From Candidatus Woesearchaeota archaeon (GTDB taxonomy: Archaea > Nanobdellota > Nanobdellia > UBA10117 > GCA-020343615), in assembly GCA_020343615.1 (NCBI GenBank), contig CP070803.1, positions 530,606-567,939 of the forward strand: DNA of 37,334 nucleotides, in the 5' to 3' direction. Made by a program: the position numbers and the translations under genes. Below, piece by piece: positions 4,786 to 17,831 of this stretch; the stretch's first letter is position 1, and each line of letters begins with the position of its first letter. The notes beneath the pieces are model-generated. The model saw only the letters and a program-made list of their open reading frames with translations. It ran no database searches and was not told the DNA's origin.

Positions 4786-5325
4786 TTATTCTTGAATTAC
4801 TTTTATTGTTGGCTTCATAATGTACTTGCCATTACCTGTAGCATGTATGGATTCATTTGCATCGAAATCAATGGTTAAAGTCGTTGTCTCATTAGTATTA
4901 ATAGTAAATGATTTTGTTAATTTAATGGTCCTTGATGGAATAGTTAAGTCGTGATCTGTTCCGTTGATTGTTGCGAGTGCGCTCTCTACATCTAATCTTA
5001 TCTGAGTATATTTCCCAGATTCTAATTCTGTACTTCCTAAGAATTCTTTGACATCCTTTATTTCTATAAGATCAAATGTCTGAGATTCCTCAACAACCGT
5101 ATACCAGCCAGCTTCACTCTCATTACTTTCGTTGTCTCCTTCATTATAATCTGCTTTGTGAACCTTAATGTTGGAAATAGTTACTATAGCTTTTTCTATT
5201 TCAAAATCAGCAGGTTTATCTGTTATTTGCATTACTAGAGTCCCTGTTCCGCTCTCAGTTTGAATGCATCCACTAACAAAAATAAGACCAATAATCAAGA
5301 TTGGTAGTATCAGTTTTAATTTCAT
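4786..5325 (-). CDS. DUF4382 lipoprotein
   Basis: 179 residues. The signal peptide ends in the lipobox VSGC (Cys20). The mature part matches the DUF4382 pattern: GTLVMQITDKPAD at the start, a strand ending in I.NIKVHKA, TFDLIEIKDV, then SGKYTQIRLDV and a final strand containing TLTIDFDA. DUF4382 proteins are extracellular beta-sandwich domains of unknown role. The SD GGAGGTAAAA sits before the ATG, 10 bp after the stop of the YbjQ-like gene, so it is the third gene of the unit 5880-4786. Its first 50 bp are identical to the 5' end of the lipoprotein gene at 9426-9680. Confidence 0.85.
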   Translation of the reverse strand: MKLKLILPILIIGLIFVSGCIQTESGTGTLVMQITDKPADFEIEKAIVTISNIKVHKADYNEGDNESNESEAGWYTVVEESQTFDLIEIKDVKEFLGSTELESGKYTQIRLDVESALATINGTDHDLTIPSRTIKLTKSFTINTNETTTLTIDFDANESIHATGNGKYIMKPTIKVIQE

Positions 5326-8277: not shown

Positions 8278-8649
8278 TTAGGTAAGTTTAGAGTGGTGTT
8301 GGAAATATCTTTCTTCAATATGAGTAATTTCAACTAATCTGTTCAATAACTGATGTATCTCGTTTACTAAAGCTACTTCTTTTTTTAATTCATTTATATC
8401 CCTTTTCATAACCTTTAAATCTCCGTTTATATGCTTAGTAACTTGAACTACGCCATCTCCTTTTTTAATTAAGTGTTCTACACCTTCTACATCGTGAAGC
8501 AGTTTCTTCTCTATTTTTTCGTCATTTACGTGATCTCTCATTAACTCTTCCACCAGTTCTTCAACTTCTTTTCCTATTTCTAGCTTCTCTTTGGTTAACT
8601 TCTCTATTCTTTGAATATTATATAAATCTCCATCTATATTAAGAGGCAT
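8278..8649 (-). CDS. Helical coiled-coil protein
   Basis: 123 residues, predicted all-helical, rich in Glu, Lys, Leu and Val, with four His near the end (THIEERYFQHHS). No family recognised; size and pattern resemble the protein at 6589, but I see no clear sequence similarity. It has an SD (GTGAT) and a leader: its ATG is 44 nt from the BRE at 8693, which lies back to back with the promoter of the STT3-like lipoprotein. Confidence 0.65.
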   Translation of the reverse strand: MPLNIDGDLYNIQRIEKLTKEKLEIGKEVEELVEELMRDHVNDEKIEKKLLHDVEGVEHLIKKGDGVVQVTKHINGDLKVMKRDINELKKEVALVNEIHQLLNRLVEITHIEERYFQHHSKLT

Positions 8650-8680
8650 ATTATCACATCAAATTATAGTTTATTTTAAT

Positions 8681-8712
8681 ATTAAAACCTTACTAAAAGA
8701 AGATTTATTAAT
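8681..8712. promoter_or_regulatory. Divergent promoter pair
   Basis: Minus: GTAAGGTTTTAATATT (BRE at 8693) for the 8649 gene, 44 nt, with SD. Plus: GAAGATTTATTAATTATT (BRE at 8699) for the 8735 gene, exactly 36 nt, leaderless. The BREs are 6 bp apart. Confidence 0.65.
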
Positions 8713-8734
8713 TATTATCTATTATTAAATACTG

Positions 8735-9412
8735 ATGGACTGGAAAGATAAGAGAATATGGGTCGGAGTCTTAATTACATCTATATTCTTAATTAGTGGA
8801 TGCAGTCAAAAAGAACCTGAGGTTACAGTTGACCAGTCTTATGAACTAGCACACTTTAATTATACTAAGGATAACGAGACCTTTACTTCTATAAAATACG
8901 AAGACATGGCTCCTGCAGTTGAATGGATAAGACAAAATACTCCTGAAGATGCGGTGTTCTTGAATTGGTGGGATTATGGTCATATTATAAGAGGGCAAGC
9001 TGAAAGAGAGGCAATAGTATGGGAACCTTCAAAAGAGATTCTATTCACAGTTGCTAGATATGCTGCTATGTCAAATGAGGAAAGAGAAAAAGTTGAATGT
9101 CCTCAATGTAATCCGCATGATAGGATATTAGATGTCGTAAATGCTTTGATTGCTGAGGATGCTTCTGAAACTATAGAAATAATGTCTAAATATAATGCTA
9201 CTTATCTCTTAGTAAGGTGGGAAGACAAACACAAGAGCTATGTTATCTTTTTAATTTCAGATAAGGACCCTGCAGATTATGTAACTGAATATTACGAGCC
9301 TAAAGAAGCTGCTCTAAGTACTACACTATTCAGAGCCATAAACAGTGAGGACATTGAAGGTTTTGAACTAGTTTATTCTGACGATTCAGTAAACATATAT
9401 CAAAAATCTTAA
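8735..9412 (+). CDS. Lipoprotein carrying a free-standing STT3/AglB catalytic-type domain
   Basis: 225 residues. Residues 1-23 form a lipoprotein signal ending ISGC. The rest looks like the soluble C-terminal part of the oligosaccharyltransferase STT3/AglB: AVEWIRQNTPEDAVFLNWWDYGHII, written here as AVEWIRQNTPED (residues 61-72) and the WWDYG motif (78-82), then a region with NATYLLVRW and a final strand ending in VNIYQKS. In normal STT3/AglB (600-1000 residues) this domain follows 13 membrane helices that bind lipid-linked glycan and carry the catalytic acidic residues; those are absent here. WWDYG recognises the acceptor sequon Ser/Thr, so this protein might bind sequons rather than catalyse transfer (inference). 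Leaderless promoter, 36 nt. Confidence 0.85.
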   Translation: MDWKDKRIWVGVLITSIFLISGCSQKEPEVTVDQSYELAHFNYTKDNETFTSIKYEDMAPAVEWIRQNTPEDAVFLNWWDYGHIIRGQAEREAIVWEPSKEILFTVARYAAMSNEEREKVECPQCNPHDRILDVVNALIAEDASETIEIMSKYNATYLLVRWEDKHKSYVIFLISDKDPADYVTEYYEPKEAALSTTLFRAINSEDIEGFELVYSDDSVNIYQKS

Positions 9413-9425
9413 AATATAATAAAAA

Positions 9426-9680
9426 TTAAGCCCTAGGTTTACAAGAACAGACTACTTTACTGGTTTCTGTATTACATTCCCACTCTCCAACGTATTCCCA
9501 GTTCTTAACTTCACATGCAATTCTACACCCTACGTCTAAGGCTCCAGGTTTTTCTGGATTTGAAGTTTCTGGATCGCATTGCATATCAGTCTCTAATTTT
9601 TCATATCTTGATAGTTCTGTACACCCGCTAATAAAAATAAGACCAATAATCAAGATTGGTAGTATCAGTTTTAATTTCAT
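9426..9680 (-). CDS. Small Cys-rich lipoprotein
   Basis: 84 residues: signal peptide with lipobox ISGC (Cys20), then a 64-residue mature domain with seven more cysteines (for example DVGCRIACEV and VVCSCKP), likely disulfide-bonded outside the cell. No family recognised. The first 51 bp around and after the start are identical in DNA to the DUF4382 lipoprotein gene at 5325. The ATG is 43 nt from the BRE at 9723. Confidence 0.75.
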   Translation of the reverse strand: MKLKLILPILIIGLIFISGCTELSRYEKLETDMQCDPETSNPEKPGALDVGCRIACEVKNWEYVGEWECNTETSKVVCSCKPRA

Positions 9681-9746: not shown

Positions 9747-10307
9747 TTAACTCGTAAATTGAGTGTCCTCACATTCCTCTAAAGTATCTTTCATTATTTG
9801 TCTTGCCTTGCAGTCAATCATAGTTAAGGTGACTCCATATTTACTTGTTGATAACTCTACTACAGCTGCTCCTTCTATATTAATAGGACTTGCTTCCTTT
9901 TCTTCAGCAGATACATCATAGGTCAAGTATATCTTACCTTTTATGTATTTTCCATTTTGTTCAAGACATGGAGAAATATAAATACAATATAGCTTGGTAT
10001 CATCTTCTCCCTCTTTGTTTCCCATGTGACAGGGAGCTTCATTATTCACAGGTATATCTAGAATAGGTACCTGTTTTTCAGAATACCAATCAGATGACTT
10101 GTCGAAGGGGGAGGTATCTGAATAAATAGTGGTTTCTTCTAAGAAATATTGAAGTACTTGTTTTGGGCATGGTACTTCAACTTTATCGCCTGTCTCTTCG
10201 GCTACCTTAAATACTATATCTGTGATTATTTCTTTTAATGAATCAATACATCCGCTAGTAAAAACTAGTCCAATAATTAGAATTGGAATGATTATCTTGA
10301 GGTTCAT
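9747..10307 (-). CDS. Lipoprotein of unknown function
   Basis: 186 residues. Lipobox TSGC (Cys20), then an extracellular domain with about eight further cysteines and mixed beta/alpha character (KIYLTYDV, AAVVELSTSKYGVTLTMIDC). No family recognised. Its ATG overlaps the stop of a 59-residue membrane-protein gene as ATGA, so the two are coexpressed from the promoter near 10531. Confidence 0.75.
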   Translation of the reverse strand: MNLKIIIPILIIGLVFTSGCIDSLKEIITDIVFKVAEETGDKVEVPCPKQVLQYFLEETTIYSDTSPFDKSSDWYSEKQVPILDIPVNNEAPCHMGNKEGEDDTKLYCIYISPCLEQNGKYIKGKIYLTYDVSAEEKEASPINIEGAAVVELSTSKYGVTLTMIDCKARQIMKDTLEECEDTQFTS

Positions 10308-10767: not shown

Positions 10768-12777
10768 TTATTGGCAATCTGGGCAATCTAGACCTTCTTT
10801 CCTAGGATGACATGATCCGTCACAAACTCCTTTGAAACAAGCTGAGCAATCTGGGCAATCTGGGTCATTACCTGGATCACAAGTTGGTCCGCAACATCCG
10901 TCACTTATTCCACAAGATGGCCATGTATTCTCACAAACTCCTGCGTTACAAACATCTGTAGTACAAGATTCTCCATCGTTACAATCAGCATCTGAAGTAC
11001 AACCACAGTCTACAAAACAGTAGTTTACATCTTCTGCTCCTTCACAAGTTCCATCGCCACAACAGTAACTTGGTGCACAATCTGCACAATCTGGGCCTTC
11101 TTTCCTAGGATGACATGATCCGTCACAAACTCCTTTGAAGCAAGCATCACAAGTCCCGCCTTGTCCGCTTATACAATCAGCTGGACAAGTATTACAGTCC
11201 TCACCATTTGCTGAACCAGCGCAGTAACCGTCTCCACAAGCTGGACAGTCTATATCATTTATCCAATCGCAAGCTGGTCCACAGCAACCATCAGATACTA
11301 TTAGATCACATGCGGCCCATGTACTTTCACAGTATGCAGTACAAGTTCCTGCAAAATAACAGATATCTGTTGTACATGATTCAGAGTCATCACAATCTAT
11401 ATCTATAGAACAATACGGAGTTGTACAAGTTCCAGAACAGCAAACATTCCCTTCTACACCGCAAGGAGTGTTATCAGCTACTGGTGGATTGCTACACTCT
11501 CCTGTTTCTGTGTTACAGATATCCTCTGTACACTCATTTCCATCGTAACAATCTTCATTTGACGTGCATCCTCCTGAAACTGCTTGCCATGCTGCATATG
11601 CATCCACTCTTCCATAACCTTGTCTGTTAAAAGGTTGTCCTAGATCTACAGAAGTATTTCTTATCCACATTCTTATATCGTATGGTGTTAATGCTGGATT
11701 TTCTTCAAGCATCAAAGCAGCTATTCCTGCAACATGTGGAGTTGACATAGAAGTTCCTGACATGTCATCAATTCCATTGTTCGGAGCTAATGATGTTATG
11801 ACTGAGCCTGGGGCTACAACATCTAGTTGAGAGTTTCCATTGCTAAAACAAACTATCTTATCTGCATTAGTTGTTGAATCTGTACAATAAGAACTACACA
11901 TCCAATTACAACACCAAGATTTAGAACCTACGTTATCATCGTAAACTGCTCCTACTGACATTACACCTGAACCGCATGCAGGATTACCTATTTGTGTTTC
12001 AGAACAATCATTTCCTGAAGCAGCTACTACAAATACACCGTTAGCAACAGCTGTATTTGCTGCATTTGCAGCAGGTTGAGAATCACATGTTCCGCTGTGT
12101 AAAGAGAATCCTAAACTTATTGTAATTACATCTGCTTCATCTCCAGTTCCATAAACTCCATCAGGACCTTTAGCACACCATAATATTCCATCTACTGTAT
12201 CAGATTCATAACCACTTCCTTGGGAATTAATTGTCTTTGCTGCCATTATATCTGCTCCTGGAGCATTTCCTTTGTAAGTATTATGAGCAGATGCTACAAT
12301 ACCTGCACAATGTGTTCCATGACCGTGATCATCTGATGCATCATTATCATTATTATAGAAATCATATTCAGCTACAACATTCAAATCAGAATGTGGTCCT
12401 ACTCCAGTATCTACGACACAGACTCTTATTCCGTTACCTGTAACTCCTTGAGCCCATACATCATCGCTATTTATCAAAGCAGCTGATTCATCTAGAGCTA
12501 AAGCATATACTAGATTATCTTCAAAAACTCTGACTCCTGGGATGTTCTCTATGTTTTTCTGAAGTCCTTTTGGCAAGTCTCTTATTGCAACCATGTTCAA
12601 TTCTGTCCAATCGTATTTTATATTACCGCCAATCTTCATTATAGCATTGATATTTGCTTTTTGTATTGCATTATCATATCCTACTATTAGATTTACTTTA
12701 TCTCCTTCAGCAGATATCAAATTGGGCACTAGTAATAAACCTGTAATTACTAAAATTAATGGAATATATTTTCTCAT
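10768..12777 (-). CDS. Secreted subtilisin-like (S8) serine protease with Cys-rich repeats
   Basis: 669 residues. Signal peptide (1-23); a short I9-type propeptide (about 27-93); an S8 catalytic domain with Asp123 (VVDTG), His153 (HGTH), oxyanion Asn256 (SGND) and Ser343 (GTSMSTPH); then a C-terminal region (about 400-669) made of Cys-rich modules of the CxxxxDCxxxxxCxxxxC type. A block near residues 545-565 (CFKGVCDGSCHPRKEG) recurs at the very C-terminus. All catalytic residues are present, so it should be an active extracellular protease, perhaps for surface-protein maturation or scavenging of peptides. The SD GGAGGT precedes the ATG. The catalytic domain has extra cysteines, which suggests disulfide stabilisation. 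Confidence 0.95.
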   Translation of the reverse strand: MRKYIPLILVITGLLLVPNLISAEGDKVNLIVGYDNAIQKANINAIMKIGGNIKYDWTELNMVAIRDLPKGLQKNIENIPGVRVFEDNLVYALALDESAALINSDDVWAQGVTGNGIRVCVVDTGVGPHSDLNVVAEYDFYNNDNDASDDHGHGTHCAGIVASAHNTYKGNAPGADIMAAKTINSQGSGYESDTVDGILWCAKGPDGVYGTGDEADVITISLGFSLHSGTCDSQPAANAANTAVANGVFVVAASGNDCSETQIGNPACGSGVMSVGAVYDDNVGSKSWCCNWMCSSYCTDSTTNADKIVCFSNGNSQLDVVAPGSVITSLAPNNGIDDMSGTSMSTPHVAGIAALMLEENPALTPYDIRMWIRNTSVDLGQPFNRQGYGRVDAYAAWQAVSGGCTSNEDCYDGNECTEDICNTETGECSNPPVADNTPCGVEGNVCCSGTCTTPYCSIDIDCDDSESCTTDICYFAGTCTAYCESTWAACDLIVSDGCCGPACDWINDIDCPACGDGYCAGSANGEDCNTCPADCISGQGGTCDACFKGVCDGSCHPRKEGPDCADCAPSYCCGDGTCEGAEDVNYCFVDCGCTSDADCNDGESCTTDVCNAGVCENTWPSCGISDGCCGPTCDPGNDPDCPDCSACFKGVCDGSCHPRKEGLDCPDCQ
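10784..10842. repeat. Direct repeat inside subtilase gene, copy 1
   Basis: About 59 bp, nearly identical to 11087-11145 (offset 303 bp, or 101 codons); within the 50-bp core 10793-10842 I see one mismatch. It encodes the CFKGVCDGSCHPRKEG module. Confidence 0.85.
11087..11145. repeat. Direct repeat inside subtilase gene, copy 2
   Basis: Partner of 10784-10842. The 303-bp spacing preserves the reading frame, so loss or gain by recombination would remove or add exactly 101 residues. Confidence 0.85.
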
Positions 12778-12852: not shown

Positions 12853-13176
12853 CTAATTATTGAGATCTATATCTTTTATTTCTTCTAACATCTCTTTTTC
12901 TAAATCATCAAGACGATCTATTTCGCACTTTGAGGAAGAATCATATGCTTTACTCGCTGTTTTAAATGACCACGCACCGCAATATTTTTTACATTTTTCT
13001 CGTAGGTTTGCCGTGTCATAAGCCCATACACAATCTTCTTCTGATTCTTTTGTCATTTCTTCAACTACTTTTTCAGTTTCTTTAGTATCATCTATTGATA
13101 AATCCCCTGTCTCGGTACACCCGCTAGCAAATATGATAAAAATAATAAACAAGGGGACTAATATTCTCCAGTTCAT
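12853..13176 (-). CDS. Small lipoprotein with shared acidic linker
   Basis: 107 residues. Lipobox ASGC (Cys20), then a Glu/Asp/Lys linker containing KVVEEMTKESEE, then a short Cys-containing domain (CVWAYDTANLREKCKKYCG) with four cysteines. The lipobox-proximal 35 residues are clearly related, in DNA and protein, to the start of the large lipoprotein at 17765, while the domains after the linker differ. A GTGAT SD lies before the ATG; BRE at 13221, 45 nt away. Confidence 0.75.
   Translation of the reverse strand: MNWRILVPLFIIFIIFASGCTETGDLSIDDTKETEKVVEEMTKESEEDCVWAYDTANLREKCKKYCGAWSFKTASKAYDSSSKCEIDRLDDLEKEMLEEIKDIDLNN
13035..13135. repeat. Shared lipoprotein linker DNA, copy 1
   Basis: Partner of 17622-17722. 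Boundaries are approximate because I aligned them by eye. Confidence 0.75.
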
Positions 13177-15618: not shown

Positions 15619-16419
15619 CTAATTCTTGAGAAGTTTTCCTGATCCTCTCCAGCTTACTCCTTTATATGAGGACATATGAATATCGCTAAATTCCTTGGGA
15701 TCAAACCATTCCTTCAAAGTCTCTTTTTTAATAAAAAAGGTTGTAGGAGCATTTAACTTATCAAATACATTCATGGTGTTTCTTTTGAAATTTAGCTTTC
15801 TCCAGTTTTTAAAGTAAAGATAGAATGGTAGAGAACGAATGGGTAAGAGATAGATTGTATATATAGGTAAATACATAAATGCGGTGGTAAGTCTGGATAG
15901 CCTCCAAAGGTTCTTTTTACTCATTCTTAAGAATATCTTCCTCTTTAAATCCTCTAACAAAGTTCTATTCAGATAGTTTCCTTCATAAGAATATACCCAA
16001 ACTATTACTTTACCACCTTCCTTAGCAAATTTCTTGATATTGTTAAAGGATTTAGTTGGATCATCTGTGTGATGTAAAACTCCTATTGAATAAACAATAT
16101 CAAACTTCTTTTTTAAGGTTACATTCGCTATGTCCCCTTCGACTATTTTAACGTTTTTATTGTTTGCAAAATCTTTTGCTATTTTAGTAGTATTAAGATC
16201 TACACCGTAGACTTCTTTACAAAAAGGTACTACGAGATTTATGAATCTTCCATCACCACAGCCACAATCTACTGCTGTTTTACCCTTAAAATCATCTAAT
16301 TTATTGGGGTGAATCCAATCCTCAAACAACCATTTATTGCTATCTCTAATCTTCTTATCTTCTATTTCTGAAATCTTACTTGCTCTCCACGTCCAATCTG
16401 CTTGTTTTTTCTGCTTCAT
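15619..16419 (-). CDS. Class I SAM-dependent methyltransferase with membrane-associating segment
   Basis: 266 residues. The Rossmann methyltransferase signature is clear: motif I VDCGCGDGRF (about residues 50-59), the acidic end of strand 2 in YGVDLNTTK, EGDIAN as the third motif, and VYSIGVLHHTDDP as motif IV. Residues 175-205 are hydrophobic (FMYLPIYTIYLLPIRSLPFYLYF) and may associate with the membrane, which suggests a lipid or lipid-linked substrate such as glycan precursors (inference). Its ATG shares one base with the stop of the large lipoprotein upstream (TAATG), so it is translated after that gene. Confidence 0.88.
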   Translation of the reverse strand: MKQKKQADWTWRASKISEIEDKKIRDSNKWLFEDWIHPNKLDDFKGKTAVDCGCGDGRFINLVVPFCKEVYGVDLNTTKIAKDFANNKNVKIVEGDIANVTLKKKFDIVYSIGVLHHTDDPTKSFNNIKKFAKEGGKVIVWVYSYEGNYLNRTLLEDLKRKIFLRMSKKNLWRLSRLTTAFMYLPIYTIYLLPIRSLPFYLYFKNWRKLNFKRNTMNVFDKLNAPTTFFIKKETLKEWFDPKEFSDIHMSSYKGVSWRGSGKLLKN

Positions 16420-17765
16420 TACTCAATAAGTTCACATTCACCCTCAACGCATGTATAGTTTTCTAAGCAATCAGTATCATTCACACATTCTGGTTCTTGC
16501 GAATCAACACAATTATATTCTAAACATATTTGATTTGTCTCGCAGTCTTCATCAACTTTACATTCTACTTCTTCACATTCGCCAGCTTCACATATTTCTA
16601 ATTCAGCACAGTCGGTGTCATTTATACATTCGGGTTCTTCACACTCACCATTTACGCATATTTTATCACCTTCACAATCTTCGTCAACAGTGCACTCTTC
16701 TTCTTCTGGCTCATCTATATCCTCACCAACTGTTCCGCTCTTAGCAATAACTGGAAGTAAATTGTACTCATTTCGATGTCCTTTCTTTACTATATTTATG
16801 TCAAACACGAATTTAGTTGTTTCATTTGCTTTTATTTCAAATTCCCTTACGATTTGTAGCTTATCACTTGGAACTTCTACATCTGCAACTGTTCCGTTGG
16901 TTCCATTTAGAATACCTTCAACTTCAGATACGTATAATTCAATTTTAGTGTAGGAACCTTCTTCGAGACTTATGTTAAGGACTGAGATTGCTTTTTCTCC
17001 TACAACTTGAGTAAGGTCAACTGAAGTTCCACTTAATTCAAACTCTTCAAAACCACCTGATTCTCCTGACTGGAAAATCCTTGTTTTTGAGAAGCTTACT
17101 ACCAAACTTTCAAAATCTCCAATATCTGCCTCTTTGTCTGAAATAAAAAGTACAAAGTTTCCAGTTGGTGAACCTGTACCTTCAGTTTCTGTGAATGAAC
17201 CGGATACTGAAGCATCGCCTTCAAATTCTATTGAATAATAATAGATTTTTCCAGATGCCAAGGCTTCACAATTACTAAAATCTATTTTTAATCGTTGAGC
17301 ATTGCCAGCATCTACATGTCCCCCACATCCGCTATAACATCTTATAACTCCTGAAGCTAAATTACCAGAACATACATCGTTCTCATTATTATCTTCAATA
17401 ACTACAAATATATCTTCAGACCCTAAGCTTAAATCTGAATTAGCTGTGTTCCTTATATAAAGCTCAAGAATCTTATTACTGTAATCTTGAGATATTAAAG
17501 ACACTGAGGTTATTTTTTCTTTCATGTATATACATTTCTCTCCGTCCCAACCATCATAACCTTTTCTTTGGCAACATTCAATTCTACCTGCTGGGGCAAC
17601 TGTACCGCAATCGTCTCCGATTATTTCTTCTGATTCTTTTGTCATTTCTTCAACCACTTTTTCAGGCTCTTTAGTCTCATCTGTTGATAGATCTTTTGTC
17701 TCAGTACACCCGCTAACAAAAATGAGTCCTATTATTAATATAGGGAGTATTAATTTAATTTCCAT
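16419..17765 (-). CDS. Large lipoprotein: acidic linker, DUF4382-like domain and four Cys repeats
   Basis: 448 residues. Lipobox VSGC near residue 20; an acidic linker with KVVEEMTKESEE shared with the 13176 lipoprotein; an unnamed beta-rich domain with several cysteines (about 50-190); a DUF4382-like domain (about 195-345, GNFVLFISDKEAD ... FEIKANETTKFVFDI); then four tandem Cys modules of the form CxxDxDCxxxxxCxxxxCE to the C-terminus. The start is ATG 17765 (SD AGGTG, BRE at 17812, 47 nt), not GTG 17774. It is an extracellular, lipid-anchored, probably disulfide-rich surface protein. Coupled to the methyltransferase gene by a TAATG junction. Confidence 0.85.
   Translation of the reverse strand: MEIKLILPILIIGLIFVSGCTETKDLSTDETKEPEKVVEEMTKESEEIIGDDCGTVAPAGRIECCQRKGYDGWDGEKCIYMKEKITSVSLISQDYSNKILELYIRNTANSDLSLGSEDIFVVIEDNNENDVCSGNLASGVIRCYSGCGGHVDAGNAQRLKIDFSNCEALASGKIYYYSIEFEGDASVSGSFTETEGTGSPTGNFVLFISDKEADIGDFESLVVSFSKTRIFQSGESGGFEEFELSGTSVDLTQVVGEKAISVLNISLEEGSYTKIELYVSEVEGILNGTNGTVADVEVPSDKLQIVREFEIKANETTKFVFDINIVKKGHRNEYNLLPVIAKSGTVGEDIDEPEEEECTVDEDCEGDKICVNGECEEPECINDTDCAELEICEAGECEEVECKVDEDCETNQICLEYNCVDSQEPECVNDTDCLENYTCVEGECELIE
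17622..17722. repeat. Shared lipoprotein linker DNA, copy 2
   Basis: About 100 bp strongly similar (roughly 85 percent by eye) to 13035-13135 in the other lipoprotein gene. It encodes the acidic linker right after the lipobox cysteine. The similarity fades in the following domain. Confidence 0.75.
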
Positions 17766-17831
17766 ATCCAACACCTAAATTAATTATATTTAAACCATAT
17801 TAAAAAACTTACTAATTAGTCGAGTTTCAAA

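Follow-up and report, generated by a model that had tools for sequence, protein, structure and literature searches.

A stand-alone STT3/AglB core domain with a predicted lipid anchor in a woesearchaeal genome and its relatives in other archaea

In our study, a gene of a Candidatus Woesearchaeota archaeon was found to encode a true C-terminal core domain of STT3/AglB, which is non-catalytic and for which a lipid anchor is predicted by sequence. The gene lies in the window, that is, the whole stretch of 37,334 nucleotides analysed here (Table 1). The best explanation, to which we give a probability of about 0.5, is a lipid-anchored, extracytoplasmic core that would bind Ser/Thr-containing (sequon-like) segments without glycan transfer, the same domain probably being the input of a HAAS-PadR pair in some relatives. 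The computed parts of this explanation are the fold, the homology, the type of anchor (by sequence), the single clade, the absence of the catalytic part, the retained WWD and DK-like motifs and the P-S replacement with its family-typical H and R.

Table 1. Positions of the features in the window (no prefix) and in loci of relatives (L numbers).
Feature	Position	Strand	Basis or remark
Stand-alone STT3/AglB core-domain lipoprotein, 225 aa	8735..9412	+	ORF; AF2 model; Foldseek matches to AglB/STT3
Signal helix (residues 3-20) and lipobox LISGC (L19-I-S-G-C23)	8741..8803	+	Sequence; relatives also keep lipoboxes
WWDYG, residues 78-82, then family-typical H83 and R86	8966..8980	+	In known OSTs, one half of the pocket for the +2 Ser/Thr (PMC8342417)
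P98-S99, replacing the AglB DGGK/DN lipid-linked-glycan motif	9026..9031	+	Alignment of stand-alone and AglB cores
DK-like motif D164-KH-K167-SYV-I171	9224..9247	+	Family alignment and pattern count
C-terminal EGFELVYSDD strand; the genome's own AglB has EGFEEVYSDD	9356..9385	+	BLASTP/alignment
Putative TATA-like, AT-rich stretch ahead of the start codon	8704..8717	+	Sequence
HAAS-5TM proteins with an STT3-type outer core, adjoining PadR	L075:4646-6495; L078:5053-8477; L198:7409-9248; L203:3815-5652		

The open reading frame starts with an ATG codon and its product has the layout of an archaeal lipoprotein, a signal helix followed by the lipobox cysteine C23, at which lipidation is predicted. 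The sequence-only reading had described a WWDYG motif (78-82) and a lipobox with no membrane helices before the motif, and the ORF, with LISGC at C23, bears this out. A frameshift that might have removed an upstream membrane part was looked for and none was found. Numerous stops close the frame upstream of the ORF (8384-8734), and the gene stands alone between two genes of the opposite strand, so that no membrane part was lost here in this way. The putative TATA-like stretch, TTTATTAATTATTA, has a single exact occurrence in the window and is only weakly unusual when compared with chance.

Lipoboxes of this type (FISGC, FVSGC, FTSGC, FASGC) were present in six further ORFs of the window. The lipoproteins at 127-792, 4786-5325, 9426-9680, 9747-10307, 12853-13176 and 16419-17774 contained near-identical signal peptides, close to LILPILIIGLIFxSGC, so that the stretch is rich in lipoproteins. 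A secreted subtilase-like protein with cysteine-rich C-terminal repeats (10768-12777) was found to contain 1 sequon, against 6.8 in shuffles. The window had been called rich in secreted proteins with NxS/T sequons, but a richness in sequons is not sustained by the counts: its secreted proteins and lipoproteins hold 26 N-X-S/T sequons, whereas 22.8 are expected from shuffles.

The host genome, a single contig of 919 kb, encodes elsewhere one full-length AglB of 865 aa, and PF02516, the multi-span membrane domain, has one match in the whole genome, outside the ORF of the window. The likeness of the protein to this enzyme goes beyond the WWDYG string. BLASTP against its own AglB gave E=2e-11 over residues 64-179 and a separate match at EGFExVYSDD; phmmer against the PDB returned STT3 and AglB chains, with STT3 at 2e-8. 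With the profile of the stand-alone family (A3, 19 sequences), 20 of 23 PDB matches were STT3/AglB/PglB, the best of them human STT3A (3.7e-12). In Pfam (PF21436/PF22627), the protein reached 18.5 bits against a curated cut-off of 27 bits, and two relatives (L064, L070) stood above the curated cut-off of PF21436 (26.2 vs 23 bits). The expected fold of the STT3 C-terminal domain was recovered by modelling: the AlphaFold (AF2) model had a pLDDT of 91.8, a pTM of 0.82 and one signal helix only, and all 24 Foldseek matches at E<=0.001 were STT3/AglB or DPY19. The best small-domain match was the globular core of AfAglB-S2 (PDB 3vu0; TMt 0.77, rmsd 3.5). The C-mannosyltransferase DPY19, matched in structure at E of about 3e-5 and with a sequence identity of 14-17%, is a membrane enzyme, unlike the protein of the window.

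The protein shares with the AglB/STT3/PglB core (PF21436, PF22627; 3vu0) the fold, WWDYG, the DK-like motif and the C-terminal FxxVYSDD strand, and differs from it in carrying a lipid anchor instead of the N-terminal multi-span membrane domain. The motifs of this missing domain, DXD and TIXE/SVSE, are part of the catalytic site in known OSTs, where WWDYG and DK/MI form the +2 Ser/Thr pocket and the presumed binding motif for the lipid-linked oligosaccharide is DGGK or DNXT (PMC8342417). In the stand-alone family, W78 was conserved in 18/19, W79 in 19/19 and D80 in 18/19 members (WWD in 18/19), followed by D/E164 in 19/19 and K167 in 11/19. The DK pattern was found in 10/19 members, as compared with 3.9% in shuffled tails. 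The place of DGGK/DN was occupied by P-S (once P-N) in 18 of 19 members, and neither DGG nor a DN-type sequence was present there (0/19 each), whereas the 76 AglB cores compared contained DG/DN/RN-type sequences. H83 was conserved in 17/19 members and was also present in 44/76 AglB cores. R86 was conserved in 15/19, and neither R86 nor P-S was found in the 76 AglB cores, in which Trp84 was common (67/76) and position 86 was mostly Gln/Asn/Thr; the protein of the window has R86 and no W84. As WWD and a DK-like motif are kept while the catalytic membrane part and the glycan motif are gone, the acceptor half of the site is largely kept and the donor half is lost. The label 'catalytic-type' given to the domain earlier is therefore unfit.

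A scan of the genome contigs with the single protein found no relatives; the family was therefore reached stepwise, through the NCBIfam model TIGR04392 (HaoB) within the phylum and then with alignment A2 against the genome contigs and the order of G121. A3 comprises 19 of the stand-alone or fused sequences reached in this way. Among the matches listed, members were found in Aenigmatarchaeota, Nanoarchaeota, Woesearchaeota, Pacearchaeota, Altiarchaeales, Undinarchaeales, Methanomassiliicoccales and another euryarchaeon. The distribution was patchy: of the 242 genomes from the order that includes G121, about 15 carried a stand-alone core, none was found in the 17 same-order relatives of the genome studied here, and plasmids, phages and viral contigs yielded no relatives. 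The lipobox architecture recurs in other archaeal genomes (L064, L065, L069, L070, L076, L126, L128-L132, L204). A single helix was the anchor in L067, L074, L134 and L144, HAAS with about five helices in L075, L078, L198 and L203, and seven helices were predicted in L073. In L076 (5851-7563), the lipoprotein core and a C-terminal region fused to it share one ORF of 571 aa. The NEP and TES motifs of this region resemble those of clan GH-A glycosidases; Pfam and PDB searches with this region gave no match confirming a glycosidase.

In a tree built from 19 stand-alone cores and 38 cores of AglB by a quick search over 170 columns, and containing several long branches, the stand-alone cores were found on one side of a branch with an SH-aLRT of 98. 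One clade apart from the AglB cores argues against repeated local truncations of AglB. A frameshifted or truncated AglB was rejected on this ground and on the closed upstream frame. Full-length STT3 was present in 20 of 22 genomes holding the stand-alone form; in G208 and G177, of one genus and 92-93% complete, the lipoprotein was present and STT3 was not detected. No operon shared with AglB was found across the relatives, and no conserved gene neighbourhood either, except that PadR adjoins the HAAS forms and that members of one genus are syntenic. The AglB gene of L075 is situated some 3 kb downstream, with two opposite-strand genes between. In the open-access literature, as far as it was covered, neither stand-alone STT3 cores nor a fusion of STT3 with HAAS were found to be described.

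Genes for a HAAS-5TM protein with the core were found beside PadR genes five times in four euryarchaeal genomes (two in L078). In L075, L198 and L203, the PadR gene and the gene for the HAAS-5TM-core protein overlap or abut, and in L078 one PadR gene is flanked by two such genes. The PadR matches of these loci ranged from E 1e-22 to 3e-24 and the HAAS matches from 1e-4 to 8.5e-9, the latter above the Pfam cut-off in 3 of 5. The part of a previous study that was available proposes HAAS-PadR as a two-component-like alternative for envelope stress and names FtsX, FtsW and Toastrack as HAAS fusion partners, the STT3 core not being among them (PMC11237479). With PadR beside the HAAS forms, the core looks like the sensor input in those genes, and a sensing role in the HAAS-PadR lineages is plausible by analogy with that dyad. 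In contrast to these relatives, neither a HAAS domain nor a PadR gene was found in the protein of the window or among its neighbours.

The best NCBIfam match of the protein was HaoB (TIGR04392; 8.9e-9), at 35.4 bits and so far below the curated cut-off of 200, with an alignment covering residues 48-166. Across the family, TIGR04392 was also the NCBIfam model matched most often (13/19 members, namely this protein and 12 others of A3), so that HaoB may itself be a stand-alone STT3-core-like protein. HaoB, compared here through its profile model, is a protein of unknown function adjoining hydroxylamine dehydrogenase in the bacterial hao operon of ammonia oxidisers, whereas the protein of the window is archaeal.

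The domain might instead be a sensor or regulator that reads the state of the envelope, for example unglycosylated or misfolded surface proteins, with the lipoprotein as one half, the input, of a split system that has its transducer encoded elsewhere. The adjacent or overlapping PadR genes and the envelope-stress role proposed for the dyad (PMC11237479) speak for this reading; we consider it rather unlikely for the protein of the window, which lacks a HAAS domain and extra helices and is encoded by a single gene between opposite-strand genes, none of its neighbours being PadR-like. The sequence-only reading had offered three roles, an acceptor-presenting subunit, a regulator of AglB and a binder of unglycosylated surface proteins; all three are still conjecture, and the HAAS-PadR relatives lend support to that of a regulator or sensor.

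The STT3 fold could also have been repurposed for another ligand, such as a glycan, a lipid head group or a redox or metal partner, H83, R86, P98 and S99 forming the real pocket and WWD being structural. The conservation of the family-typical H83, R86 and P98-S99 is nearly that of WWD, and the HaoB match points the same way. WWD is missing in the divergent relatives L144 (YSDSA), L133 (WWPHA) and L163, and the top structural matches of the L144 model were still AglB cores and DPY19, that is, the fold is kept without WWD. In the HAAS-fused members, WWD is mostly kept and the DK lysine mostly missing. In view of these two groups, the ligand could be a different one and perhaps no sequon at all. 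With WWD in 18 of the 19 aligned members and a DK-like motif in roughly half of them, clearly more often than in shuffles, we nevertheless regard repurposing as improbable. That the small and patchily distributed gene is a functionless remnant of an AglB paralogue minus its membrane domain is very hard to reconcile with an intact ORF that has a signal and a lipobox of its own, with a single clade spanning distant archaea and with conserved residues absent from AglB, and we give it hardly any credence.

Under the favoured explanation of a non-catalytic core binding sequon-like segments, the protein would sit lipid-tethered on the outside of the cell surface. Going beyond the computed parts, we infer that the core may bind Ser/Thr-containing stretches of proteins emerging there, that the bound protein would receive no glycan from it, and that it would act beside AglB as an acceptor-binding partner, a chaperone or a status reader. 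In some euryarchaeal relatives, as their gene architecture suggests, the same domain would serve as the external input to a transcription switch of the HAAS-PadR type. It is a more doubtful proposal that surface proteins which read sequons, derived from a dead OST core, form a family in the archaea, in which lipoproteins bind unglycosylated N-X-S/T and the HAAS-PadR versions report glycosylation status to transcription.

The stand-alone STT3 core is a variant of the known OST core domain, with related genes scattered across the archaea, and the family offers a structural lead for HaoB. If the binding of sequons is true, acceptor recognition would be split from catalysis in N-glycosylation, and a soluble domain of ~200 aa that is easy to assay would be available. 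If the HAAS-PadR forms sense the glycosylation state, they would form an archaeal feedback loop for surface glycosylation, of which we know no report.
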